IMG/VR virus record: IMGVR_UViG_3300008117_000627
Coordinates: 1-37,512 of that record
DNA length: 37,512 nucleotides
Source of the DNA: a virus
Reading direction: 5' to 3' (one strand)
Shown piece after piece: positions 1,020 through 27,556 of the stretch. Position numbers and translations under genes: made by a program. A model generated the notes under the pieces. It did no database searches. It was not told the origin of the DNA and was given only the letters and a program-made list of their open reading frames with translations. How positions within the stretch are numbered: position 1 is the first letter of the stretch; every line of letters begins with the position of its first letter.

Positions 1020-1181
1020 ATGTCAACTAGAATGTACGGTCCCGAAGAAAAAGCAAAACTTGAAAGATTGATCAACGAGGGCGGCAACGTGCTACGTGAA
1101 GTAGAAGATCTCAAAGAGGGCCTTAAAGAAACTGTGAAAGCAGTTGCTGAAGAACTCCAAATTAAACCCAGCGTTGAATAA
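1020..1181 (+). CDS. Small DsbA-like phage protein
   Basis: This 53-residue protein begins with an ATG 6 bases after a TAGGAG ribosome binding site and ends in a TAATG overlap with the next gene. It is charged and mostly helical, with the pattern EEKAKLERLINEG, a second helix EVEDLKEGLKE and a short tail EELQIKPSV. This resembles the small T4-like DsbA family (double-stranded DNA binding near late promoters), but it ends soon after IKPSV, where relatives I recall continue for some 15 residues. The family assignment is from pattern memory and is tentative. It is the first gene of the operon driven by the promoter at 972-1000. Confidence 0.65.
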   Translation: MSTRMYGPEEKAKLERLINEGGNVLREVEDLKEGLKETVKAVAEELQIKPSVE

Positions 1182-1540
1182 TGAGCTACTGGGGATATCA
1201 TTTATTATTAGATTGCAGCGGCTGTGATATAGCTGCCGTAAAAGATCGTGATAACATATACAAGTTCGTAAAAGACCTAGTGGCACGCATCGATATGACT
1301 GCACACGGAGAACCTATCATCGAATATCTTCTCCCCGGAGATCCTAAACAGGGATATAGTCTTTTGCAATTAATTACAACCAGCAACATCAGTGGTCATT
1401 TTATGGAATTAGATGGCACGGCCTACTTTGATATTTTCAGTTGTAAAGAATTTGATCTTGAAGTTGCAAAACAGGTAGTCAATGAATATTTTCACCCTAA
1501 GAAAATGCGGGTTAACTTTTTGACTAGGCATGCAGATTGA
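1181..1540 (+). CDS. speD: S-adenosylmethionine decarboxylase-like (SpeD) protein
   Basis: The protein has 119 residues, the size of bacterial class 1B AdoMet decarboxylases, which self-cleave to form a pyruvoyl group and supply aminopropyl donors for spermidine. The core block is TTSNISGHFMELDGTAYFDI followed by FSC. Ser68, His73 and Cys88 have exactly the spacing of the Thermotoga enzyme's Ser63 (cleavage, pyruvoyl), His68 and Cys83. The residues around the cleavage site differ: the usual Glu-Ser-His is Thr-Ser-Asn. SpeD homologues with altered sites have been shown to act as arginine or ornithine decarboxylases, so the substrate is open. speD is a well-known auxiliary gene of cyanophages. 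Start ATG overlaps the preceding stop (TAATG). Confidence 0.85.
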   Translation: MSYWGYHLLLDCSGCDIAAVKDRDNIYKFVKDLVARIDMTAHGEPIIEYLLPGDPKQGYSLLQLITTSNISGHFMELDGTAYFDIFSCKEFDLEVAKQVVNEYFHPKKMRVNFLTRHAD

Positions 1541-2258
1541 TTTTGTAAAAACACCGTACACTACAGGTCCTAATATGATACGTAATACAGGACCTGTTTT
1601 TATTTCTTCTCCTGATCTAGACATAATACAAAAGAAAAAAGAAGAATTGTCAAAGTATAACACAGATTTATTTGGTCAGATCGCAGGATCAGAATCTATC
1701 GTTGAACGTGCTGCAAGATATTGCGGTGTATATTCTAATCAAATCCAAGATCTAGCACTGCGCTTGGAGGAAGATGTTGCTGTCATGCATCAAGGCAAAC
1801 TAACAGCTATTTGTTTTTGCTTTCCCAGCGGCTTTATCCCATCACAACGATTAGGTATGACTCTAGAAGATATTCATAGACCGGTAGCAGATAGTGAACT
1901 GTTGGTAAAAGCCAGTCCCGGTATCAGTAGGGTAATGTGTGAACAAACAAGTTTTCGCAGATGGGTCTGGACTATAACCACCAATCCTGATTTAAGTAAT
2001 CATCCTAACAACAAAAAACAAATTGAACCCGTTGGCCTAGACGATTTATATTTTAGATATGAGACACAAACCACTGCCAAAATAAATTCCGAAACCAGTT
2101 TGTTCTTTGTTAAGATGGATGTTGTTCCTCTCAAATCCGTGTACCATAAGCGAATATTAGACAGCGTTAATAGCATGACTGACAATATATTGGAATACAA
2201 AAACTTGACAAAAATTAAAAATCTGTTAAACTTGTTAGCTACTGAGAAGAATAAATGA
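1530..2258 (+). CDS. Heme-dependent oxidative N-demethylase-like protein (DUF3445)
   Basis: The protein has 242 residues and starts inside the end of speD. Its pattern fits the DUF3445 / HODM family, heme enzymes that remove a methyl group from dimethylamine-type substrates. Visible blocks are EEDVAVM (80-86), CFPSGFIPSQRLG (97-109), IHRPVA (115-120), RRWVWTIT (143-150) and FRYETQTTAKI (175-185), ending with FFVKMDVVPL. It is shorter than typical bacterial members, which run to about 300 or more residues. The overlap with speD implies co-translation and perhaps a joint role in amine metabolism, but the substrate is unknown. Confidence 0.75.
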   Translation: MQIDFVKTPYTTGPNMIRNTGPVFISSPDLDIIQKKKEELSKYNTDLFGQIAGSESIVERAARYCGVYSNQIQDLALRLEEDVAVMHQGKLTAICFCFPSGFIPSQRLGMTLEDIHRPVADSELLVKASPGISRVMCEQTSFRRWVWTITTNPDLSNHPNNKKQIEPVGLDDLYFRYETQTTAKINSETSLFFVKMDVVPLKSVYHKRILDSVNSMTDNILEYKNLTKIKNLLNLLATEKNK

Positions 2259-2548
2259 TAAATGATGTGTTTCGACCCACACTAGAATGGATACATGATG
2301 ACTGGAAGTCTAATAAGTTTCGCTTTGTTATTGAGCTACTTGCTTGGGCTATTAGTATTGGCTGTGCGATCACTATGGCAGTCACCGTCCCCACCCCGCC
2401 TTTACTTGCTCTTTATCCTATATGGATTTCTGGTTGTGCCATGTATGCTTGGGCTAGTTATACTAGGAAATCATTTGGCATGCTGGCTAACTACCTCTTG
2501 CTAGTCAGTATTGACAGTGTTGGCCTAACAAGAATGCTAATTAATTAA
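2255..2548 (+). CDS. Small membrane protein, three helices
   Basis: This 97-residue protein starts with an ATGA overlap with the N-demethylase gene. A polar N-terminus (FRPTLEWIHDDWKSN) is followed by about three hydrophobic segments, roughly residues 25-45, 48-66 and 75-92, so it should sit in the inner membrane with the N-terminus polar. I recall similar proteins next to speD in marine T4-like phages, but no function is known to me. PnuC-like small transporters are superficially similar in size and topology; I would not assign one. Confidence 0.8.
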   Translation: MINDVFRPTLEWIHDDWKSNKFRFVIELLAWAISIGCAITMAVTVPTPPLLALYPIWISGCAMYAWASYTRKSFGMLANYLLLVSIDSVGLTRMLIN

Positions 2549-2623: not shown

Positions 2624-5293
2624 TTGAGTTATGTAGACGCTTTCTATAACAGAGAGCAGGATATCATCAATGTTGTTGAACGCAATGATAAAGGCGAACG
2701 GCATTACAAAGAATATCCTGCAAGACATGTTTTTTATTATCCAGACGCCAAGGGTAAATTCACAAGTATTTTTGGACAATCGTTGTCCAGAGTAAGTTCT
2801 AAAAATGTCAAAGAACATCGTAAAGAACTTGCAATCCATTCAAACAAGAAACTGTTTGAAAGCGATATTAATCCCATTTACCGTTGTCTAGAAGACAACT
2901 ATATCAATGTTGACGCACCTAAACTTAACGTAGCGTTTTTTGATATTGAGGTAGACTTCGATCCAGAACGTGGCTATGCATCGCCAGAAGATGCATTTAT
3001 GCCAATCACTGCCATTGCTGTCTACCTACAATGGATGCAGACTATGGTGTGTTTGGCGATTCCTCCTAAGACATTAAGTATGGAAGAGGCAACTAAACAG
3101 GTTGCAGAATTTCCCAACACCATGCTGTTTGATAACGAAGCAGATATGTTAGATACATTCTTAGATCTAATACAAGATGCAGACGTACTAAGTGGGTGGA
3201 ATTCAGAAGGCTTTGATATTCCATATACTGTTAATCGTGTTACCAAAGTTCTAAGCAAAGAGGACACACGCAGATTTTGCCTGTGGGATCAGTTTCCCAA
3301 GAAGCGTGAGTATGAGAAGTATGGCAAGGCGGCTGTCACATATGACCTTATTGGGCGTGTACACCTAGACAGTCTTGAACTATATCGCAAGTACACTTAT
3401 GAAGAGCGCCACACCTATAGACTAGATGCTATCGGAGAAATGGAGATAGGTGAGAACAAGACTGTCTACGAAGGCACACTTGATCAACTGTACAACAATG
3501 ACTTCCGCAGATTCATCGAATACAACAGACAAGACTGTATGCTGTTGGAAAAGTTAGATAAAAAACTCAAGTTCCTAGATCTTGCCAATACACTGGCACA
3601 CGAATGTACTGTGCTACTACAGACCACAATGGGTGCTGTTGCTGTGACTGAACAGGCCATTATCAATGAGGCTCACAAGCGTGGAATGATTGTTCCTAAT
3701 AGAATATCTAGAGAAGAAGGCTTTAGTAATCAAGCCGCTGGTGCATATGTTGCCTATCCCAAGAAAGGCATTCACGAGTGGATTGGCTCTTTAGACATCA
3801 ACAGTCTATATCCATCAGCAATTCGTGCCTTAAACATGGGCCCGGAAACCATTGTTGGACAACTGCGCCAAGATGGCACCAAGGCGTTTATTGACGGTGA
3901 GATTGCTAAGGGCAAAAGTTTTGCATCAGCATGGGAAGGCGTCTTTGGTTCATTAGAATATGCAGCCGTACTAGAACGAAATGTTGGTCGTGAAATTGTC
4001 ATTGACTGGGAAGACGGTGGCACAGATACACTGAGTGCTGCTCAGGCCTATGATCTAATCTTCGAAAGCAATCAGCCGTGGATGATCAGTGCCAACGGTA
4101 CTATTTTTACTTATGAAAAAGAAGGTATTATTCCTGGCTTGCTCAAACGTTGGTATGCTGAACGCAAAGACATGCAGGCCAAACTCAGAGACTGTATTGC
4201 AGCAGGCAACAAGATTGAGGAAGAATACTGGGACAAGCGTCAGTTGGTCAAGAAGATTAATCTTAACAGTTTGTATGGTGCTATTCTTAATCCTGGTTGC
4301 CGTTTCTTTGATAATCGAATTGGACAATCAACCACCCTAACAGGTCGTGCTATTGCTCGTCACATGGCCGGAAAAGTAAATGAAATCATCACCGGTGAAA
4401 ATAATCACACTGGTAAAGCCATCATTTACGGTGACACTGACTCATGTTATTTTTCAGCCTATACCACACTTAAGAAAGAAATAGATCGAGGAGCTCTACC
4501 TTGGACTAAAGAAAGTGTCGTTGAACTATATGACACAATTGGTGAGGAAGTAAATTCAACGTTTCCCAAGTTCATGCAGGACGCATTCCATTGTCCAAAG
4601 ACTCGTGGTGAAGTTATCAAGGCTGGTCGTGAGATTGTTGCATCACGTGGCTTGTTTATTACTAAAAAACGTTATGCTGTGTTATACTATGACAAAGAAG
4701 GCAAGCGAGCAGACATAGACGGCAAGCCAGGTAAGATCAAGGCCATGGGTCTGGATCTTAAACGCAGTGATACTCCTGTAGTGATTCAAGACTTCTTGAG
4801 TGAAGTGTTGACTAAGGTGTTGAATAACGGAACTAAAGAAGATGTTTTGGAGTATATCACTGATTTCCGTACTGAATTTAAAACTCGTCCCGGTTGGGAG
4901 AAAGGATCACCTAAACGTGCAAACAACATTACAGAATACGCCAACAAAGAGAAGAAGGCTGGCAAGACTAATATGCCTGGTCATGTTAGAGCAAGCCTTA
5001 ATTGGAATACGCTCAAAAGAATGATGGATGACAAGTATAGTATGAGTATTACAGACGGTGCAAAAGTTATTGTCTGTAAAGTCAAAGACAATCCGATGGG
5101 CTATACATCTGTGGCCTATCCCGTAGATGAACTTAGACTGCCTCAATGGTTTAAGGACTTGCCTTTCAACGATGCTGAAATGGAAAATGCAGTTATCGAT
5201 GAAAAGCTAGAAAACTTGATTGGAGTCTTGGAATGGGACATCAGTTCAACTCGCAGTGACAACACATTCAGTAAACTTTTTGATTTTGAGTGA
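2624..5293 (+). CDS. 43: Family B DNA polymerase (gp43)
   Basis: The 889-residue protein matches T4 gp43 (898) in length and layout and is the replicative polymerase with 3'-5' proofreading. Exo I is FFDIEVDFD (Asp107, Glu109). Motif A is SLDINSLYPSAI with catalytic Asp391. Motif B is KKINLNSLYGAI. Motif C is YGDTDS with Asp604 and Asp606. All key residues are intact. I chose the TTG start because AGGAG lies 6 bases upstream and the protein begins MSYVDAFY, as expected for the family. The clamp gene follows after a 43-base gap that carries its own promoter. No clamp loader (gp44/62) is in the window. Confidence 0.97.
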   Translation: MSYVDAFYNREQDIINVVERNDKGERHYKEYPARHVFYYPDAKGKFTSIFGQSLSRVSSKNVKEHRKELAIHSNKKLFESDINPIYRCLEDNYINVDAPKLNVAFFDIEVDFDPERGYASPEDAFMPITAIAVYLQWMQTMVCLAIPPKTLSMEEATKQVAEFPNTMLFDNEADMLDTFLDLIQDADVLSGWNSEGFDIPYTVNRVTKVLSKEDTRRFCLWDQFPKKREYEKYGKAAVTYDLIGRVHLDSLELYRKYTYEERHTYRLDAIGEMEIGENKTVYEGTLDQLYNNDFRRFIEYNRQDCMLLEKLDKKLKFLDLANTLAHECTVLLQTTMGAVAVTEQAIINEAHKRGMIVPNRISREEGFSNQAAGAYVAYPKKGIHEWIGSLDINSLYPSAIRALNMGPETIVGQLRQDGTKAFIDGEIAKGKSFASAWEGVFGSLEYAAVLERNVGREIVIDWEDGGTDTLSAAQAYDLIFESNQPWMISANGTIFTYEKEGIIPGLLKRWYAERKDMQAKLRDCIAAGNKIEEEYWDKRQLVKKINLNSLYGAILNPGCRFFDNRIGQSTTLTGRAIARHMAGKVNEIITGENNHTGKAIIYGDTDSCYFSAYTTLKKEIDRGALPWTKESVVELYDTIGEEVNSTFPKFMQDAFHCPKTRGEVIKAGREIVASRGLFITKKRYAVLYYDKEGKRADIDGKPGKIKAMGLDLKRSDTPVVIQDFLSEVLTKVLNNGTKEDVLEYITDFRTEFKTRPGWEKGSPKRANNITEYANKEKKAGKTNMPGHVRASLNWNTLKRMMDDKYSMSITDGAKVIVCKVKDNPMGYTSVAYPVDELRLPQWFKDLPFNDAEMENAVIDEKLENLIGVLEWDISSTRSDNTFSKLFDFE

Positions 5294-5950: not shown

Positions 5951-7495
5951 ATGAAAGAACCAATTAATCTAACACCGTTACAAAAAGACTATGCAGTATA
6001 CCTACCTGCTATCAGTTCTTTTTATAGTACCTACGTTGCCAAACAACGATTAGAAGAATTTGTACCAAACGATCGTATTCCTAAAGGATTCGATCGTGGT
6101 ATTGAAGGTATGAACTTTCTAAATCCAGATCAAGGCTACTTTACCTACAAGTATGCCCTGTATTCGGCGGGCCACGCACAGTTAGACCTAAATAAAAGCA
6201 TGACACAAGAATCCATGATTCAACAGCGAGATCGTGCTAACACAATGATCTTAGGCGATTCAGGAGGATATCAGATTGGTAAAGGTGTTCTTAAGTTTGA
6301 TTGGTTAAACTTTGAAGGTGCAAGTGCTAACGAAACTCGTCAAAAGATTCTCGAGTGGTTGGAATTGACTGCTGACTGGTCAATGATGCTGGACGTTCCG
6401 ACATGGGCCTGTGATCATATTCATAGTCCCAAGACCGGGTTGAAAACATTTGAAGACTGTCTAGAAAAGACACGCTTTAACAACGACTACTTCTTGCAAA
6501 ATCGTCTAGGCCAGACTAAATGGCTTAACGTATTACAAGGTGGTGACTGGGATACTGCTGAAAAATGGTATCGCGGTGTTGTAGAGTTCAGCGATCCCAA
6601 AGGCAAGTATGCTGGCAAGGAAGCAGAAGGTTGGGCCATGGGTGGCGCTAATATGTGCAAGATGCCCATTACACTAAAAAGGTTGATAACATTGAGAGAC
6701 GAAGGTCTCTTAGAAGGCAAGGACTGGATGCACTTTTTGGGTACAGCACAGCTTGACTGGTCTTGTTATCTTACATTAATTCAACGTGAAATTAAAAAGC
6801 ACATAAATGAAAACTTTACCATCTCTTTTGATTGCGCCTCGCCGTTCATTGCAACAGCACACGGACTTGTCTATACCAACGCCCAGCACACCAACAAGCG
6901 TTGGAGTGTTATTATGGACAAAGCCCCAGATACAAAAGCCCTTAGCCAGAATTTTGACATCCCATTCCCATTCGAATCAGAAGTTGGAAGCAGATTATCA
7001 GTAGGTGATATCTGTTGGTACAAGCCCGGCATGCTTAATAAGATCAACAAGGAAGGCAAAACTAGTTGGGATAGTTTTAGCTATGCATTAATGATGGGAC
7101 ATAATGTTGAATGTCATATCAAGGCTGTACAACGTGCTCAACAATTGATGGATATTGAATGTGCCAAACACAAGCCAGACTGGCGTATGTGGGGTGTTGA
7201 AGGCAAGAAAGAAATTGAATTCAGCGAATGGGTGCCCCGCAAGATCCTTTATTTTGCCACATTCATTGAAGAATTATTCAATACTAAAACTAAAGCAGAA
7301 GCATTTGCATTGATCGACAATGCCAATCAATTCTTAACCAGCCTCGAAGGTGCTCGACTCCAAGGTGGCCCTGTTGCCTATGGTAACAAAGATCTGTTTG
7401 ATTGGGGTGATGCCAAGAAGGTCAAAGAAGAAGAATTCGATCAGCAAGATGATGATGAGCTACGTGCATTGGAAGGTATCGTTCAAGGAGCATAA
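5951..7495 (+). CDS. dpdA: DpdA-like DNA 7-deazaguanine transglycosylase (TGT fold)
   Basis: The 514-residue protein has the tRNA-guanine transglycosylase signatures in order: GDSGGYQIG with Asp103, MMLDVP with Asp148, LQGGDW (Gln196), WAMGG (Gly231-Gly232) and the FDCASP nucleophile block with Asp294. Phage members of this fold (DpdA) exchange guanine in DNA for a 7-deazaguanine such as preQ0, which protects against restriction. The queE gene at 16738 and folE at 11529 supply steps of the same pathway and support DNA rather than tRNA as the target. It starts 3 bases after the clamp stop. The last 50 residues are acidic and probably flexible. A true tRNA enzyme cannot be excluded from sequence alone. 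Confidence 0.8.
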   Translation: MKEPINLTPLQKDYAVYLPAISSFYSTYVAKQRLEEFVPNDRIPKGFDRGIEGMNFLNPDQGYFTYKYALYSAGHAQLDLNKSMTQESMIQQRDRANTMILGDSGGYQIGKGVLKFDWLNFEGASANETRQKILEWLELTADWSMMLDVPTWACDHIHSPKTGLKTFEDCLEKTRFNNDYFLQNRLGQTKWLNVLQGGDWDTAEKWYRGVVEFSDPKGKYAGKEAEGWAMGGANMCKMPITLKRLITLRDEGLLEGKDWMHFLGTAQLDWSCYLTLIQREIKKHINENFTISFDCASPFIATAHGLVYTNAQHTNKRWSVIMDKAPDTKALSQNFDIPFPFESEVGSRLSVGDICWYKPGMLNKINKEGKTSWDSFSYALMMGHNVECHIKAVQRAQQLMDIECAKHKPDWRMWGVEGKKEIEFSEWVPRKILYFATFIEELFNTKTKAEAFALIDNANQFLTSLEGARLQGGPVAYGNKDLFDWGDAKKVKEEEFDQQDDDELRALEGIVQGA

Positions 7496-7498
7496 TTT

Positions 7499-7690
7499 AT
7501 GTATGAACAAAGAATTAAACATTTGGAAGAAGCGCATCGTGCTTTGGATAAACAAGTTGACACTTTGGAAAGAACAGGCCTGTTTGAAGACCTAAAACTG
7601 GAAGAATTGAAGAAACAACGGTTGCTCTTACGAGATAAACTTGCTATACTAAAGCATAAACAACAACTTCACACACAGGCATCACAATGA
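7499..7690 (+). CDS. Small coiled-coil protein, DUF465-like
   Basis: This 63-residue protein starts 4 bases after dpdA, whose end supplies the AAGGAG ribosome binding site. It is almost entirely helical, with KHLEEAHRALDKQVDTLE, a short turn and EELKKQRLLLRDKLAILK. This H..LD..I..LE...EL..LKK.RL.L pattern is that of the DUF465 / YdcH family of small bacterial proteins of unknown role. It overlaps the next gene by ATGA. Confidence 0.75.
   Translation: MYEQRIKHLEEAHRALDKQVDTLERTGLFEDLKLEELKKQRLLLRDKLAILKHKQQLHTQASQ
7622..7650 (+). promoter_or_regulatory. Weak candidate sigma70-type promoter
   Basis: TTGCTC (7622-7627), 17 bases, then TATACT (7645-7650). The predicted start near 7657 is about 30 bases before the ATG at 7687. 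It lies inside the DUF465-like gene and matches consensus at only 8 of 12 positions, so it may be chance. Confidence 0.3.
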
Positions 7691-7896
7691 CAGCGCACAC
7701 TTTCAGTCTCAATCGCGCACAGGTTGAAAAACTTGCCAAGATGGCGGATCACTTCAAGGAAGTGGAGTGGTTCACTCTCGAAGAAACTAATACCAGCGGT
7801 ATTGGTCCTACGGTTTCCGTAAAGTTTAATCTATTCGGAGATCACGATAAAGATCAAGATACCACTATAGATATCACTGATGTGAGTACTTGGTAA
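7687..7896 (+). CDS. Hypothetical protein, 69 residues
   Basis: The gene is held between an ATGA overlap upstream and a TAATG overlap downstream, which is good evidence that it is translated. The protein has a helical N-terminus (NRAQVEKLAKMADHFKEV) and a beta-rich acidic C-terminal half ending in TTIDITDVSTW. I do not recognise a family and see no motif that suggests a reaction. Confidence 0.7.
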   Translation: MTAHTFSLNRAQVEKLAKMADHFKEVEWFTLEETNTSGIGPTVSVKFNLFGDHDKDQDTTIDITDVSTW

Positions 7897-16737: not shown

Positions 16738-17592
16738 ATGAGTAAAATTAAAATCGCAGAGCTGTTTTACAGCATACAAGGTGAAGGCAGGTACATGGGG
16801 GTACCTAGTGTGTTTCTACGTACATTTGGATGTAACTTTAAATGTGCAGGATTTGGTATGCCTCGCGGCGAACTAAGCAAAGAAGTTGAATCTATCTCTG
16901 AACGCATCACTGAATTTAAAGTCTATGAAGAACTTCCGTTAGTTAGTACTGGTTGTGATAGTTATGCATCATGGGACCCACGCTTTAAGGATCTTAGTCC
17001 AATGCTTACTAGCGATGCTATTGCAGAACGTATTGAAGAGATACTGCCCCACAACAAATGGAAGGATGAACATCTTGTTATCACAGGCGGTGAACCTTTG
17101 CTAGGGTGGCAACGTGCTTATCCAGACTTGCTACGTCATCCTAAAATGGCAGGCCTAAAAGAAATTACATTTGAAACAAACGGTACTCAAAAGCTAACAG
17201 AAGAGTTTAAAGAATATCTAGTAGAATGGCAAATGCCTAATATGGATTTTGCTAGAGAAGTTACATTTAGTGTAAGTGCTAAACTTCCATGCAGTGGTGA
17301 GAAGTGGGAAGAAGCAATTCTACCAGAAGTAGTTTGTGAATACGAACAAGTTGGCACAGCATACTTAAAATTTGTTATTGCTACAGAACAAGACTTTGCC
17401 GACGCAGAGTGCGCTATTGCCGCTTATCGTAAAGCAGGATTTAAAGGACACGTTTATCTAATGCCAGTGGGAGGGGTAGAAAGCGTTTACGCACTAAACA
17501 ATAAAAATGTAGCATTATTAGCAATGAAGAATGGTCTACGCTACAGTGATAGATTGCAGGTGCCGTTGTTTAAAAATGAGTGGGGTACTTAA
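16738..17592 (+). CDS. queE: QueE, 7-carboxy-7-deazaguanine synthase with split cysteine motif
   Basis: The 284-residue radical SAM protein begins IKIAELFYSIQGEG and VFLRTFGCNFKC, the QueE N-terminus, and has ITGGEPLLGW (Gly117-Pro120). QueE turns 6-carboxytetrahydropterin into 7-carboxy-7-deazaguanine on the way to preQ0. The usual CxxxCxxC iron-sulfur motif is split: Cys32 and Cys36 are followed by about 36 inserted residues before Cys73 in TGCDSYASW, which aligns with the normal WCDT.YA. It probably feeds the DpdA-like enzyme. The ATG is preceded by a promoter rather than a ribosome binding site. Confidence 0.88.
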   Translation: MSKIKIAELFYSIQGEGRYMGVPSVFLRTFGCNFKCAGFGMPRGELSKEVESISERITEFKVYEELPLVSTGCDSYASWDPRFKDLSPMLTSDAIAERIEEILPHNKWKDEHLVITGGEPLLGWQRAYPDLLRHPKMAGLKEITFETNGTQKLTEEFKEYLVEWQMPNMDFAREVTFSVSAKLPCSGEKWEEAILPEVVCEYEQVGTAYLKFVIATEQDFADAECAIAAYRKAGFKGHVYLMPVGGVESVYALNNKNVALLAMKNGLRYSDRLQVPLFKNEWGT

Positions 17593-21909: not shown

Positions 21910-22716
21910 TTTACTAATTTGTTCTGCGAATTCTTTATGTGTTTGTTCTGTAAAGTGATGATTAGGTAATACATATTCTGGGTTAAGATCAGCCATTTTT
22001 AAAACAATTGGAATAATTTTTTTGTAAAACTGTAGTTTTTCTTTATATTCAAAATTAAATTTCGTTAATCCATTGTTCCAAATACACGAATCAACAAAAT
22101 GTATACTACATCCGTTAGTTTCAAAAAACAATTTTGCAAGAGACAATACAGAGATAGATTTTACTAATCGATCATAATCTTTCATTTTAAAGAAAAAATT
22201 GAAAACATCATTTTCCATAAAAGATGGAGATATTTTATTTTCAAAGTGCCCAGAAGTCCAGCTAGCATAATTATATTCATTTTTATAATTAACATCATAC
22301 ATGGGATATCCCATTCTATTATAAGAAGTGACCATAATTATAATTGATATATTATTAGCTTTATAATCATTTTTCAAATTACAAAAAGTATCTATTGCTC
22401 TGTGAACAATTTCTTCATTAGATATTCCAGGTGCTGAACAATTTATTACATCGGTACCAGATAGCAGTTGTTCTAAATGAGCAGGCCATGCCTTTTTCTT
22501 ACATTCCGATTCGTAAAAATTTTTCTTAATTTTATCTTGCCATAACGGTAAAGTTTTTTTTTGTAATTTTTCAATTATTTTTTTACGCTCATCCGTCATT
22601 TCTTGGTTATTAGGATATAACGTACTGGTATAACCTTCTACAAAAAGATCTCCTGCAAGTTCATCTCCTGCTGTATAACTATCGCCTGCACAAATGATTA
22701 ATTTAGACTTTGTCAT
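21901..22716 (-). CDS. SGNH-like hydrolase at the end of the minus-strand cassette
   Basis: The 271-residue protein has block I CAGDSYTAG (Ser13), a block II-like INCSAPGISNEEI, a block III-like TSYNRMG and a possible block V LPNHHFTEQTH. SGNH enzymes de-acylate sugars and lipids. It is co-translated (TAATG overlap) with the upstream 694-residue radical SAM gene and differs from the two SGNH-like proteins on the plus strand. The DNA is visibly AT-rich. It ends in a 9-base overlap with the convergent plus-strand gene. Confidence 0.75.
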   Translation of the reverse strand: MTKSKLIICAGDSYTAGDELAGDLFVEGYTSTLYPNNQEMTDERKKIIEKLQKKTLPLWQDKIKKNFYESECKKKAWPAHLEQLLSGTDVINCSAPGISNEEIVHRAIDTFCNLKNDYKANNISIIIMVTSYNRMGYPMYDVNYKNEYNYASWTSGHFENKISPSFMENDVFNFFFKMKDYDRLVKSISVLSLAKLFFETNGCSIHFVDSCIWNNGLTKFNFEYKEKLQFYKKIIPIVLKMADLNPEYVLPNHHFTEQTHKEFAEQISKLI

Positions 22717-24800
22717 TATTCAATATGTATATTTGTAATTTTAGATTCTGTTTTTAAAATGTTTTTAATTTTTGTTGGAGATAAATCTGTGGTATTTAAT
22801 GTTGCCGCGATGTATCTAGAATTTCCGGCCCTGATATCTCTTTTTTTCCAATTTGTTCTTTGTTTAAACCATTCATAATTGCTATCAAACCAGCTCCAAA
22901 ATTCTTCTGAAGGTTCAGATCTAGTGTTTTTACCAAACCATATTACAAAATCTGCAGAATATTGCGTATACTCAACAAATACGTCGTCAGATAAAATATC
23001 GTTGCTACTCCATATAGCATATGGATCTTTTCCTATATGATGATAGGTTAGAAATATATCGCCAAAATTTCTACTTTTGTCGAACAAAAGATGTTCTCTG
23101 TCTTCAAATGTTTTACCGTAAGAAGTATTCCATGCAACATGAGTGTTAGGAAATTTTTGTACATGTTGATTCGATATTTCCGATTCTAAGCTGTGTAATG
23201 ACATATGTAAAGTATGCAAAACATGGGTTATATCTTGTGCATTTGCAAACCAATCATGTAGGCTGTTTAAATCCTGTAAATTTATAGAGTCTATTGTAGG
23301 AAAATTAGGAATTAAATTTATTTTTTCTTTTAATAAATTTATAGAATCTCTGGTTAACTCATAATAATACTGTTTGGGGTTTGACATAAAATGAAAATTC
23401 ATTACCTTGGTGGGTAATTCTTTGGTAATCATTTCTTGTACCAGTTCTGCCCATTTTTGTGCAAGAGGTTGACGTTTTATATTCCATTCTAATTGAATAG
23501 AATTATCAAATTCAATTATTAATTTTTGTTTCATCATATTTTCTGTAAAAAACGAATAAAAATCTCGGCGGCCTTGACGAATCTTTTCTTTGCTTACCGG
23601 ATTCTCTCGCATGTAATCCGTAACTCTTTTAAACTTTTCGTATTCAATTCCTGTAAAGTAATCTTGATTATCTTTAATAAATTCAAGATTAGAATCCATG
23701 CACTGCAAGAAATCATCTGTTAATATGTTAATCATCCAGTGAGGCGGTTCTTTCAAATATGGCATGTCTAAACTGATTGCTTGTTTTCCATATTTCTTTC
23801 GCCACTCAATGCATTTCTCTAAGAGAGATCGGAAATTAGTTACGCATAGTACATTAAATGTAATCATGAAATTAACTGATATTCCTAGCTGTTCGATGGC
23901 CTGTGTCATATTTCTTTCCCAGTGATCACACTGCAACCCCGTACGCATATATTCTGCTTGTGGTCCCCACGAATCTATACTGGTAAACAAACTAAAAGAT
24001 TTAATCTTTTTTTGAGTTATCAAGCTGTTAACTCTAGTATACAAACTATCGACTTTTTCAAATGTTACACCTAAGTTACTGTTAATACTTACTTCTAGGT
24101 TAGGTGCCGGTTCATTTTCTAATAGTTTAAAAAACTGCATAGCTCCTGGATTCATTAGAGGTTCTCCGCCAGTAATTCTTAAAGTATGCAAATCATTTTT
24201 TAAACTAGGCCACCATTTCCAAAACGCTTCAATATAAGGATTTTCTTCCTTAGGTGCATAGTATGTTCCTGTTTTTAGAAACTCAATACCGTATTGATTA
24301 TAGGTTAAATCATAATTTCCGTGCTTTTTAATTTCTTCCATCCACATCGAACTGGCTTGGGGGCCACAATATCCGCAACGATAATTGCAACCATTACCAA
24401 AACTAATTTCGAGATATCTAGGATTGATTGGAGCGTCCCAAGGAAGTTCTGCTATTTTTTCAATTATAGGTTCGCTAAATGTACTTGAACTATGTAACAT
24501 TCTGTCACTGATATGATCGCCGTCTAGATCTTCAATATTCCAACAGTAGTAACATTCCTGAGGACGCTCACCCTCTAACATTTTTTTACGTTGTTCTTTT
24601 TTCCACTTGGTATTGTGTAATGCCGACACATCTACTGCGATTTCATCTAGACCAATGTGATGTGGACGAGGATGATAGCAACTGTGGTTATCTCCCGTAT
24701 GAAGATAAAGCGTTTGGTGTAACCACTTCATTGTACAAAAGCTAGGACTCACTGCATTTAATCTATCTCTAACATCTTTTACAAATTGTATTCTATTCAT
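22716..24800 (-). CDS. Radical SAM enzyme, twitch-type, with long C-terminal extension
   Basis: The 694-residue protein has an N-terminal cysteine module (Cys22, Cys41, Cys83, Cys86 with HSCYHP and ECYYCWNIED), as in twitch-type proteins that hold an extra iron-sulfur cluster. Next comes the radical SAM core with CNYRCGYC (Cys138, Cys142, Cys145) and ITGGEPLMNP (Gly211-Pro214). The last 250 or so residues are an added domain I do not recognise (LNSLHDWFANAQDITHVLHT, FLTYHHIGKDPYAIW, ADFVIWFGKNTRSEPS). The substrate is unknown. It overlaps the shorter radical SAM gene by 8 bases and is clearly its paralogue over the first 430 residues. Confidence 0.88.
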   Translation of the reverse strand: MNRIQFVKDVRDRLNAVSPSFCTMKWLHQTLYLHTGDNHSCYHPRPHHIGLDEIAVDVSALHNTKWKKEQRKKMLEGERPQECYYCWNIEDLDGDHISDRMLHSSSTFSEPIIEKIAELPWDAPINPRYLEISFGNGCNYRCGYCGPQASSMWMEEIKKHGNYDLTYNQYGIEFLKTGTYYAPKEENPYIEAFWKWWPSLKNDLHTLRITGGEPLMNPGAMQFFKLLENEPAPNLEVSINSNLGVTFEKVDSLYTRVNSLITQKKIKSFSLFTSIDSWGPQAEYMRTGLQCDHWERNMTQAIEQLGISVNFMITFNVLCVTNFRSLLEKCIEWRKKYGKQAISLDMPYLKEPPHWMINILTDDFLQCMDSNLEFIKDNQDYFTGIEYEKFKRVTDYMRENPVSKEKIRQGRRDFYSFFTENMMKQKLIIEFDNSIQLEWNIKRQPLAQKWAELVQEMITKELPTKVMNFHFMSNPKQYYYELTRDSINLLKEKINLIPNFPTIDSINLQDLNSLHDWFANAQDITHVLHTLHMSLHSLESEISNQHVQKFPNTHVAWNTSYGKTFEDREHLLFDKSRNFGDIFLTYHHIGKDPYAIWSSNDILSDDVFVEYTQYSADFVIWFGKNTRSEPSEEFWSWFDSNYEWFKQRTNWKKRDIRAGNSRYIAATLNTTDLSPTKIKNILKTESKITNIHIE

Positions 24801-26208
24801 TTTGTCCCTTGCTTTGAATCCACAGATTATTTAATTCAGGAAAAGTTTTTTGAAAATCAGTTCCTCTTCTTCGATCGTGTTCTAAAAAATAAAGATAAAA
24901 GTTTTTAATAGCTATTTTGTCATCAAACGGAGTTAGCGTAATCCAATCAATTAACCGTTGTACTTTACTAATTTCGTAATCTTTGAAACCTTTAAATCTA
25001 TTGCTTTCAGTTTCTTTATTCTGTTGCATGAACCAAATAGAGTCTTCAAGCACAGTGATCATGTCTTTGGCCATCCTAGGATCCATCCAATTAGGACTTG
25101 ATAACTGTGGAATATCAAACCATATTAATTGTCTATCTACATTGAACTCGTTTCTTAGTGCGTGGATATTTTTTACATACTCTAACCAGCCTGAAAAACT
25201 TAAAACATTAAATGTTACAATAAATGTCAAACTGTGCTTTTTTCCCTTGATTAAATATTCTCTAATGTTTTTATTAAGAGTTTCAAAGTGTAATCCGTCT
25301 CTAATATATTCTGCTTGAGGACCCCAGCTGTCTAAACTACAGAATAACATGAAATGGTCAATAGCAGAAGAAACACCATCTAATTCATTTATAAACTTAT
25401 TCCATTGATCTCCGGGCGGACAACAATTACTGGTTATGCTTAGATGCAAATCTTTTTTAGGATTATTCTTAACATAATCAAACATGTGAAACGTGTTCTT
25501 GTCCATTAACGGTTCTCCGCCTGTCATACGGAATGTTTGTAATGTTGGATAAATTGTAGGCAACCATTTCCAAAACGCCAGTAAGTAAGGATTATCAGGA
25601 CTGTTATTTGGCATGGATTTATCTTTCATCCACGTCAAATCATTGTGAGTTCTGTCTGTTAATTTATACGGACCATTTCTTTCAATATCTTGTTGCCAAG
25701 CTGTACTAAGATGAGGACTACAATAAGTACATCTAAAATTACAGGCTTGATTAAAATTGACTTCAACATACCTAGGTTTAGGATTTCCTTGATGCCCAAG
25801 TGCTATTGCTTCTCTAATTAATCCTGGACGCCAGCTATCTAAACTGCGGTAGGGCCTATCACTGAGATTATTTCCGCTATCTTCTATTTCCCAACAAAAA
25901 TTGCATTCTGAAGGCCTAGTACCTTCTAGCATTTTTTTGCGCTGTTCTTTTTTATATTTTGTATTGTGTAATGCACCTACGTCAATTTTGATTTCTTCTA
26001 TAGGAACGTGGTGGCTTTTTGGATGATAACAACTATGAGTTTGACCTGTAGGAATGTGTATGCTTACATTATACCATTTGGCTAGACAAAAACTTGGACT
26101 AACTTTGTTTAATTCAGACAACATGTGTTCTGATTTGTGCATATAGACAGATTCAAATTTTCCATTTATAATTTTTACTTCGTCGCCTTTGATATTATTA
26201 TCTGCCAT
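24793..26208 (-). CDS. Radical SAM enzyme, twitch-type, short paralogue
   Basis: I start at MADNNIKGDE (26208), giving 471 residues and an 11-base overlap with the upstream gene; a Met nine codons earlier is possible. The N-terminal cysteines (41, 60, 102, 105) have the same spacing as in the long paralogue. The radical SAM motif is CNFRCTYC (156-163) and MTGGEPL follows. It has no C-terminal extension. Twitch and SPASM-type enzymes often modify peptides or build sugars and cofactors. A pair of them with glycosyltransferases suggests a multi-step modification pathway, target unknown. Confidence 0.88.
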   Translation of the reverse strand: MADNNIKGDEVKIINGKFESVYMHKSEHMLSELNKVSPSFCLAKWYNVSIHIPTGQTHSCYHPKSHHVPIEEIKIDVGALHNTKYKKEQRKKMLEGTRPSECNFCWEIEDSGNNLSDRPYRSLDSWRPGLIREAIALGHQGNPKPRYVEVNFNQACNFRCTYCSPHLSTAWQQDIERNGPYKLTDRTHNDLTWMKDKSMPNNSPDNPYLLAFWKWLPTIYPTLQTFRMTGGEPLMDKNTFHMFDYVKNNPKKDLHLSITSNCCPPGDQWNKFINELDGVSSAIDHFMLFCSLDSWGPQAEYIRDGLHFETLNKNIREYLIKGKKHSLTFIVTFNVLSFSGWLEYVKNIHALRNEFNVDRQLIWFDIPQLSSPNWMDPRMAKDMITVLEDSIWFMQQNKETESNRFKGFKDYEISKVQRLIDWITLTPFDDKIAIKNFYLYFLEHDRRRGTDFQKTFPELNNLWIQSKGQNE

Positions 26209-27556
26209 TTTCAAATTTATCCTTAAGCCAATCAAAATCGTTAATTTTAGCCAATGCCTGTAAATTTCCTATATTGTTTTCTCCGTATTTTTTCCCTTCT
26301 ATTGCACCGTCTATGGCATACTCACCGTATTTGTTTTCTATTCCTTCTGTGCACCAAATTTGTAATCTATGATCAGTTTCCTTATCATAATATCTATCAA
26401 TTACATTGCTAGATAATTTTACGCATTCTCTAAATGCACTTCTCCACGTAGTAAAAGGATCTGTATTAAACTGTGTGATATTACTAACCGTAGGTATAAC
26501 TTTAAAGTTGTTACTTATAGAAGTTGTCATGTCTGGTGTTGTTAGATCCATGTTCAGTGTTAGTTTTTTAGGAAATAGCTTTACACCACCGTACCCATAA
26601 GTTAATCCGTTAATAGGATTTTGACTTTTCCATACATGTACAGTTTCGTTAAAGTGATTTCTTTCTTGCAGATTGTAATAGGGAATTTGCGGCATTGTAA
26701 ATTCGAAATTTTCTAATACTTGTGCATCTCCATCGACTATCCAAAACATTTCTGATGTAGATTCCTTGGCCGCTTGTAAATGTGCCTGATGTATTCCTTT
26801 TACACCGTGTATTCTTTTAGCAGACGAAACTCTTGTTAACAATGTTTTATAATTTTCATCTGCATTGGATTCATTATAAGAAATAAAAAATATATCAAAT
26901 ATTCGAGGAATTGACGCAACTATATCTATTTCTTTTTTTTCTACATAGAATCTATTTTCAAATTCTCGTTGTGTGACCTTGACTGTTCTTGGAAAAATAC
27001 AGATACCGTCAAAGAACTTTCCGTTTTTAAATACGTGAGGAATATGCTGTTCATACTTAGGAACTTTAAAATCAAATTTAAATTTAGAATTTACAACAAC
27101 TTCTTTCCAGACAACCCAAAACATATCAGTTGTTGCAGTTTCTATAGCATTTAAATATTCATCATACGTGTCTATATAAAATATATCATATGGTTTAGGA
27201 TGCGATGCTACAATATCTATTTCTTTTTTTCCGTTAACAACAAATCTGTTTTCAAATTCTCGTTGGCTAATATTAGCTGTTTTAGAAATTAAACAAACTC
27301 CGTCAAAGAATTCACCGTTTTTAAATACGTGAATGTAATCGTTATCCCATTCAGGCACTTTATAAGAAAAATCAAAAGATTCATCAACTAATAAATCTTC
27401 CCAAATTATCCAAAAAAACTTGGTAAATGCTTTTGATTTTATTTGATCAAAAGATGTTACATTATCTATTTTTTGTGATCGTGGATATCTTTTTTTAAAA
27501 GTTTGCCATTGGTTGTTGCATACTACAGATTTGCTTACAAGAAAAATATCATACAT
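26198..27556 (-). CDS. Glycosyltransferase-like protein with tandem repeats
   Basis: The 452-residue protein has three modules that start with YDIF, YDIF and FDIF (about residues 2, 123 and 220). The first two are about 98-residue copies sharing HVFKNGKFFDGICIF-like and QREFENRF blocks. The third matches the 300-residue neighbour: FISYNESNADENY, RIHGVKGIHQAHLQAAKE and FWIVDGDA, a DxD-type metal site (Asp275-Asp277). In the first two modules that site reads WED and WKE, so they are probably not catalytic. A GT-A-like fold is inferred. It overlaps both neighbours. Confidence 0.75.
   Translation of the reverse strand: MYDIFLVSKSVVCNNQWQTFKKRYPRSQKIDNVTSFDQIKSKAFTKFFWIIWEDLLVDESFDFSYKVPEWDNDYIHVFKNGEFFDGVCLISKTANISQREFENRFVVNGKKEIDIVASHPKPYDIFYIDTYDEYLNAIETATTDMFWVVWKEVVVNSKFKFDFKVPKYEQHIPHVFKNGKFFDGICIFPRTVKVTQREFENRFYVEKKEIDIVASIPRIFDIFFISYNESNADENYKTLLTRVSSAKRIHGVKGIHQAHLQAAKESTSEMFWIVDGDAQVLENFEFTMPQIPYYNLQERNHFNETVHVWKSQNPINGLTYGYGGVKLFPKKLTLNMDLTTPDMTTSISNNFKVIPTVSNITQFNTDPFTTWRSAFRECVKLSSNVIDRYYDKETDHRLQIWCTEGIENKYGEYAIDGAIEGKKYGENNIGNLQALAKINDFDWLKDKFENGR
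26940..27340 (-). repeat. Tandem duplication of about 294 bases inside the glycosyltransferase-like gene
   Basis: Matching stretches recur at an offset of 294 bases: CCGTCAAAGAA at 27006 and at 27300, each followed by near-identical CCGTTTTTAAATACGTGA, and TTTTCAAATTCTCGTTG at both places. The offset is 98 codons, so the copy keeps the frame. Near identity at DNA level suggests a fairly recent duplication. The bounds given cover the clearest matches, not the whole unit. Confidence 0.7.

Follow-up and report, generated by a model that had tools for sequence, protein, structure and literature searches.

The alpha subunit of the heme-dependent oxidative N-demethylase (HODM) of Pseudomonas mendocina (PDB 5lte, 5lth and 5lti) is the DUF3445 subunit of dimethylamine monooxygenase, which is encoded by DmmDABC operons. 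To our knowledge, HODM is met solely within a multi-subunit complex, and Ortmayer et al. reportedly presented it in 2016 as the first PAS domain with demonstrated enzymatic activity. In E. coli, DmmABC were enough to give activity (PMC5520151), the alpha subunit is a PAS domain and is listed among the heme-b PAS domains (PMC8694187), and an RLP motif has been named as a conserved feature of DUF3445 proteins (PMC5809485). On the phage side, ornithine decarboxylation has been shown for the SpeD homologues of a myovirus from Lake Baikal and of further freshwater phages, which fail to restore spermidine to an E. coli speD mutant (PMC9992855).

Here, we describe a locus of a T4-like giant phage in which a gene of the HODM alpha family overlaps a speD homologue. 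It lies in a stretch of 37,512 bases, hereafter the window, which covers positions 1-37,512 of IMG/VR record IMGVR_UViG_3300008117_000627 (Table 1). What is new is a divergent and widespread phage HODM subfamily, in part of its range coupled to a probable ornithine decarboxylase.

Table 1. Features of the speD-HODM locus, in window positions
Feature	Position	Strand	Evidence or remark
DsbA-like small protein, 53 aa (86-87 aa in relatives)	1020..1181	+	phrog_12534 / phrog_639 "transcriptional regulator", PHROG E=6e-10
speD homologue of class 1b (119 aa), predicted to encode a pyruvoyl L-ornithine decarboxylase of the SpeDC type	1181..1540	+	AdoMet_dc PF02675 E=1.4e-19
Ser68 codon, predicted self-cleavage/pyruvoyl serine, counterpart of S63 in T. 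maritima; within QLITTSNISGHF	1382..1384	+	invariant column
11-nt overlap between the speD stop and the HODM start, CATGCAGATTGA	1530..1540	+	most distinct speD-HODM loci have the same or an equivalent junction
HODM_asu-like (PF11927) stand-alone heme-PAS protein (predicted), 242 aa, ATG start	1530..2258	+	Pfam, profile-PDB, AlphaFold2/Foldseek
His116 codon (= 5lte His194), sole family-wide invariant His	1875..1877	+	46/46 phage, 7/7 cellular
Val146 codon (= 5lte Asn226), phage-specific replacement, Gbeta strand	1965..1967	+	Val in 46/46 phage, Asn in 7/7 cellular
R176-x-E178-x-Q180 codons (= 5lte R264, E266, Q268), Hbeta strand	2055..2069	+	invariant
Small predicted membrane protein, 4-nt overlap with the HODM end	2255..2548	+	in related phages too, a neighbour of speD, HODM or both
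T4-type family B DNA polymerase (polB), locus marker	2624..5293	+	phrog_262 E=4.5e-196; PF00136 E=5.6e-34

The phage gene belongs to the HODM alpha family

The product of the HODM-like gene matched PF11927 (HODM_asu-like, HODM alpha, formerly DUF3445) with E=2.1e-21 and 77 bits, against a curated cut-off of 25, residues 74-231 aligning with positions 96-270 of the 273 in the profile. A profile built from 41 phage HODM proteins retrieved 5lte from the PDB (E=3.5e-13). Structure prediction agreed: the AlphaFold2 model, computed from the alignment of phage homologues, reached a pLDDT of 94.4 and a pTM of 0.89, and a Foldseek search of the PDB returned 5lth and 5lte at E values of about 5e-10 (5.2e-10 for 5lth, TM 0.76 of the query). 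The next structure came at E=0.015 and none other fell below 0.001. The predicted model thus has the HODM alpha fold, with its PAS core. Among viral resources, no PHROG or NCBIfam model matched the protein, the BFVD viral models gave no match below 0.001 to its model, and tblastn against the INPHARED phages detected no encoded relative.

The phage protein is about 100 residues shorter than HODM alpha, operon-type alpha subunits counting 337-344 aa, and the lost part is mostly N-terminal. Its N-terminus, M-[QL]-x-D-F-[VI]-K, begins inside the end of speD (...TRHAD*). Start and overlap are conserved in close relatives, and the 11-nt overlap recurs unchanged even in distant members; it likely reflects translational coupling. 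Comparison with the HODM of the relative L006 pointed to purifying selection (dN/dS 0.021/0.174, about 0.12). Given this ratio, the conserved start and the 46 distinct phage members that we found in IMG/VR, we rejected annotation noise or a pseudogene. The gene encodes a real PF11927 protein.

A first-pass annotation made from the sequence alone had proposed a DUF3445/HODM-like gene overlapping speD by 11 bases, shorter than usual and with no phage example known to it. The profile search, the junction and the length bear this out, and the literature found under DUF3445 or HODM, like the viral resources above, held no phage case. As for the heme pocket on which that proposal depended, the predicted HODM fold keeps the putative pocket residues (His116 and a polar face). 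Nor is the pair that it had singled out confined to this locus, since the overlapping speD-HODM arrangement occurs on 28 viral contigs besides the window, by our own count.

Upstream of speD lies the DsbA-like gene, and this gene order is kept in relatives. In the window, the DsbA-like gene (1020-1181, 53 aa) is 34 codons shorter than in the near-identical L001 (1020-1283, 87 aa), and speD starts 102 nt earlier than in L001, an apparent in-frame deletion in the DsbA-like gene. The membrane protein downstream of HODM matched no Pfam family.

Conserved residues and a phage-specific replacement

Residues were compared across 46 distinct phage and seven cellular homologues, with 5lte numbering. 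Window residues D82, H116, R144, V146, W147 and T148 correspond to D156, H194, R224, N226, W227 and T228, and R176, E178, Q180, F192, Y223 and K224 to R264, E266, Q268, F281, Y317 and K318. None of D82, H116, R144, W147, R176, E178, Q180 and F192 varies among the 46 phage proteins and the cellular ones compared, a solo protein of Indioceanicola profundi included. Because the HODM family is heme-dependent and His116 is its only invariant histidine, we infer that His116 would be the heme iron ligand. In the predicted model, R144/V146/T148 and R176/E178/Q180 alternate on two adjacent strands, so each set would face one side of the sheet, and the face bearing R144, R176, E178 and Q180 is the candidate heme side.

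Thus, the window protein shares with HODM alpha the PF11927 domain, the predicted fold, His194, R224, W227, R264, E266, Q268 and F281. Unlike HODM alpha, it has Val in place of Asn226, lacks the RLP motif, is paired with SpeD, belongs to a separate phage clade and has no DmmA, DmmB or DmmD partner. Where 5lte has RLP (272-274), the window protein reads AKINSE; the motif is no requirement of the PF11927 Pfam model. The solo DUF3445 protein of I. profundi (L201) shares with the phage proteins the CFP motif, IHxPVxD, R-x-x-W and RVExQ, at about 25% identity over 57% of one phage member, but unlike them it still has Asn226, and less of its N-terminal region is missing.

The partner genes were sought in phage HODM records, many of them fragments and several longer than 200 kb: DmmA and a GcvT-type DmmD were found in 0 of 30, and Fer2, the 2Fe-2S domain of the DmmB reductase, in 0 of 26, although a reductase might come from the host. 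Bacterial DUF3445 genes on plasmids, for their part, adjoin DmmA and reductase genes, and several also adjoin GcvT-type genes.

The overlapping gene probably encodes an ornithine decarboxylase

Against the NCBIfam equivalog model for AdoMet decarboxylase (AdoMetDC), TIGR03330, the window SpeD scored 40.8 bits, below the cut-off of 75.65. Li and colleagues, whose group also did the work on freshwater phages (PMC9992855), report that Gln, Thr, Phe and Tyr set SpeDC ornithine decarboxylases apart and that bona fide AdoMetDC has a conserved Pro (PMC10407285). With sites assigned by the order and identity of residues, the window SpeD (QLITTSNISGHFMELDGTAYFDIFSC) carries Q63, T67, S68 (the pyruvoyl residue), H73, F74, Y82 and C88 and is without the AdoMetDC Pro. 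His73 and Cys88 are invariant in the SpeD alignment, as is Ser68. After the catalytic His, the window reads HFMELDG, as against HTWPE in AdoMetDC.

The missing Pro alone is not decisive, as the SpeD of phage phiN3, a proven AdoMetDC that is 37% identical to the window SpeD and belongs to the same broad clade, also lacks it. That protein has the Q, F and Y but an Asp in place of Thr, which makes Thr67 the telling residue. Because all four SpeDC diagnostic residues are present, the window gene would probably specify a SpeDC-type pyruvoyl ornithine decarboxylase making putrescine rather than an AdoMet decarboxylase. It shares Q, T, F and Y, and the missing Pro, with the SpeDC ornithine decarboxylases, phage ones included (PMC9992855, PMC10407285).

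A set of 20 phage records related to the window yielded no spermidine synthase, and a search for an amidinotransferase as ornithine source gave sub-threshold matches only. In Microcystis phage MaAM05, a SpeD homologue likewise sits in a phage gene cluster (speH-speH-speE-speB), but that cluster has no HODM and does have a spermidine synthase and an agmatinase. Two phage contigs, L100 and L096, encode two SpeD homologues each: the first is of the SpeDC type, and the second has SESHMSIHTWPE, the motif of bona fide AdoMetDC.

Distribution and genomic contexts

IMG/VR was scanned with the window protein and with successively larger alignments of its relatives. HODM-bearing records of 270-316 kb also encode a terminase and a capsid protein of the gp23 type, which marks them as T4-like jumbo phages. 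In a maximum-likelihood tree, a supported branch (99/96) separated the phage HODMs from the cellular ones, the cellular sample being seven sequences and "phage-specific" holding within the sequences that could be fetched. The cellular sequences were taken from plasmid records; two scans of bacterial genome contigs with short conserved patterns returned no HODM homologue, because such patterns did not reach the cellular members.

In one set of phages, the overlapping pair occurs in the order dsbA-speD-HODM-membrane gene-polB, and a second set has it elsewhere, next to TerC or CHASE2 genes; on five more contigs, speD and HODM are adjacent and convergent. About 25 distinct phage HODMs, that is, about half, have no speD within the fetched locus. 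When 30 HODM records, some of them fragments, were searched whole, speD was found in 12, and the 18 without a match included one of 287 kb. So many phage HODMs without speD indicate that HODM function does not depend on phage SpeD.

Several neighbouring genes were noticed along the way. In L006, a 280-kb relative, a twitch-domain radical SAM gene that the window does not have (6744-7847; NCBIfam NF033640, above cut-off) stands between HODM and the membrane gene. An isocitrate lyase family gene lies near the pair in L026 (5725-6939; PF00463 E=3e-104) and, judged by eye, in L021 (5648-6967). Directly upstream of the pair, a protein combining CHASE2 and guanylate cyclase domains, an unusual signalling gene for a phage, is encoded in L027 (5562-7604; Pfam), a record that has gp23 and terminase, and, by eye, in L040 (5955-8015) and L145 (5556-7601). 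A gene for the UV damage endonuclease UvdE stands beside HODM in L113 (6980-7999; Pfam) and, by sequence likeness, in L117 (6979-7995), L116 and L040 (9362-10393). Downstream of HODM, an IMPDH/GMP reductase family gene was seen in L119 (9409-10497; Pfam) and L133 (7499-8518; likeness).

Possible roles of the phage protein

We tentatively favour a reading in which this compact PAS protein, one of a phage-specific subfamily within the HODM alpha family, is a stand-alone amine oxidase or demethylase. It would hold heme b via His116 and oxidise a small amine with O2, by N-dealkylation or deamination, at the polar face formed by R144, R176, E178 and Q180. It would probably be co-translated with the SpeD homologue, a presumed self-processing pyruvoyl L-ornithine decarboxylase making putrescine, and the target of the pair would be the infected cell's pool of amines and polyamines. 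Electrons would come from the host, since the phage records tested yielded no DmmA, GcvT or 2Fe-2S partner. A polyamine-related substrate is suggested by gene neighbourhood alone. A bolder version, in which the overlapping genes form one unit during infection, the decarboxylase supplying putrescine and a stand-alone heme-PAS oxidase of new substrate, evolved in phages, oxidising this product or a polyamine derived from it, seems to us rather unlikely; we know of no polyamine-remodelling module of this kind in any virus or cell. These readings overlap with the alternatives below, and the confidence given to each need not add up to one.

The linkage itself could be functionally meaningless, speD and HODM merely sharing an insertion hot spot by polB, which would be compatible with any role of HODM. 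Any of speD, HODM and the membrane gene may be missing between dsbA and polB, L181 has HODM without speD there, and in one clade (L043, L113) HODM adjoins speD in opposite orientation. That convergent arrangement had been considered as independent proof of linkage, and we downgraded it to weaker evidence because all three genes come and go at one hot spot. However, the overlapping pair is also found away from polB, by TerC or CHASE2 genes, on many contigs, and we consider a meaningless linkage possible but on the unlikely side. Another possibility was that the protein has returned to a sensing role and binds heme but is no enzyme, acting as a gas, redox or ligand sensor that regulates SpeD or another partner by contact. 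The place of HODM alpha among the heme-b PAS domains (PMC8694187), the lack of an electron-transfer partner in the phage records tested and the N226V change in 46 of 46 proteins would suit a sensor. Yet an output domain is absent and the putative catalytic polar residues R224, R264, E266 and Q268 remain invariant, which makes this rather unlikely.

The first-pass annotation had connected HODM enzymes with methylamine breakdown and read the pair as a host amine-metabolism module. A module for methylamine breakdown is unlikely: partners are absent from every phage record tested, Asn is replaced by Val in all 46 proteins and about half of the HODMs have no speD nearby. A variant in which the phage enzyme demethylates dimethylamine, or another methylated amine, by borrowing host DmmA, DmmB and DmmD, for a gain of host nitrogen and one-carbon units, draws on the HODM alpha family and fold and on the retained His194 and polar face. 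Against it stand the 0 of 30 records with partner genes, the N226V change, the lost RLP motif, the distance of the phage branch from the Dmm branch and the loss of much of the Dmm alpha N-terminal region, and we hold it to be improbable. The same annotation had offered a changed substrate or partner as the other option; this is plausible, and the better half of its guess. As for speD, the coupling stood, and a SpeDC-type ornithine decarboxylase is a better fit than an AdoMet decarboxylase. Least probable of all is an oxidative N-demethylase of nucleic acids or proteins, serving AlkB-like repair or counter-modification. It would be in keeping with the position of HODM beside UvdE (L113, L117, L040), Pyr_excise (L134) or polB (window, L181), but the substrate of the bacterial enzyme is very small, no nucleic-acid-binding feature was seen in the phage protein and the neighbours differ between phages.

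The large phage branch, with its invariant residues kept, its partners gone and one conserved Asn changed, amounts to a natural experiment in which the passage of a PAS scaffold between sensing and catalysis can be followed. The auxiliary genes of T4-like jumbo phages would also gain a putative heme protein dependent on oxygen, tied to phage polyamine metabolism, for which experimental groundwork on SpeD homologues exists.

Other genes of the window

Elsewhere in the window, positions 5951-7495 encode a 514-aa protein whose ILGDSGGYQ stretch resembles TGT/DpdA-type enzymes, an identity that Pfam, NCBIfam, PHROGs and a PDB sequence search did not support. A QueE-like radical SAM protein (phrog_2076) is encoded at 16738-17592, and the two genes may have to do with 7-deazaguanine DNA modification. 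Two adjacent radical SAM proteins are encoded on the minus strand at 22716-26235.
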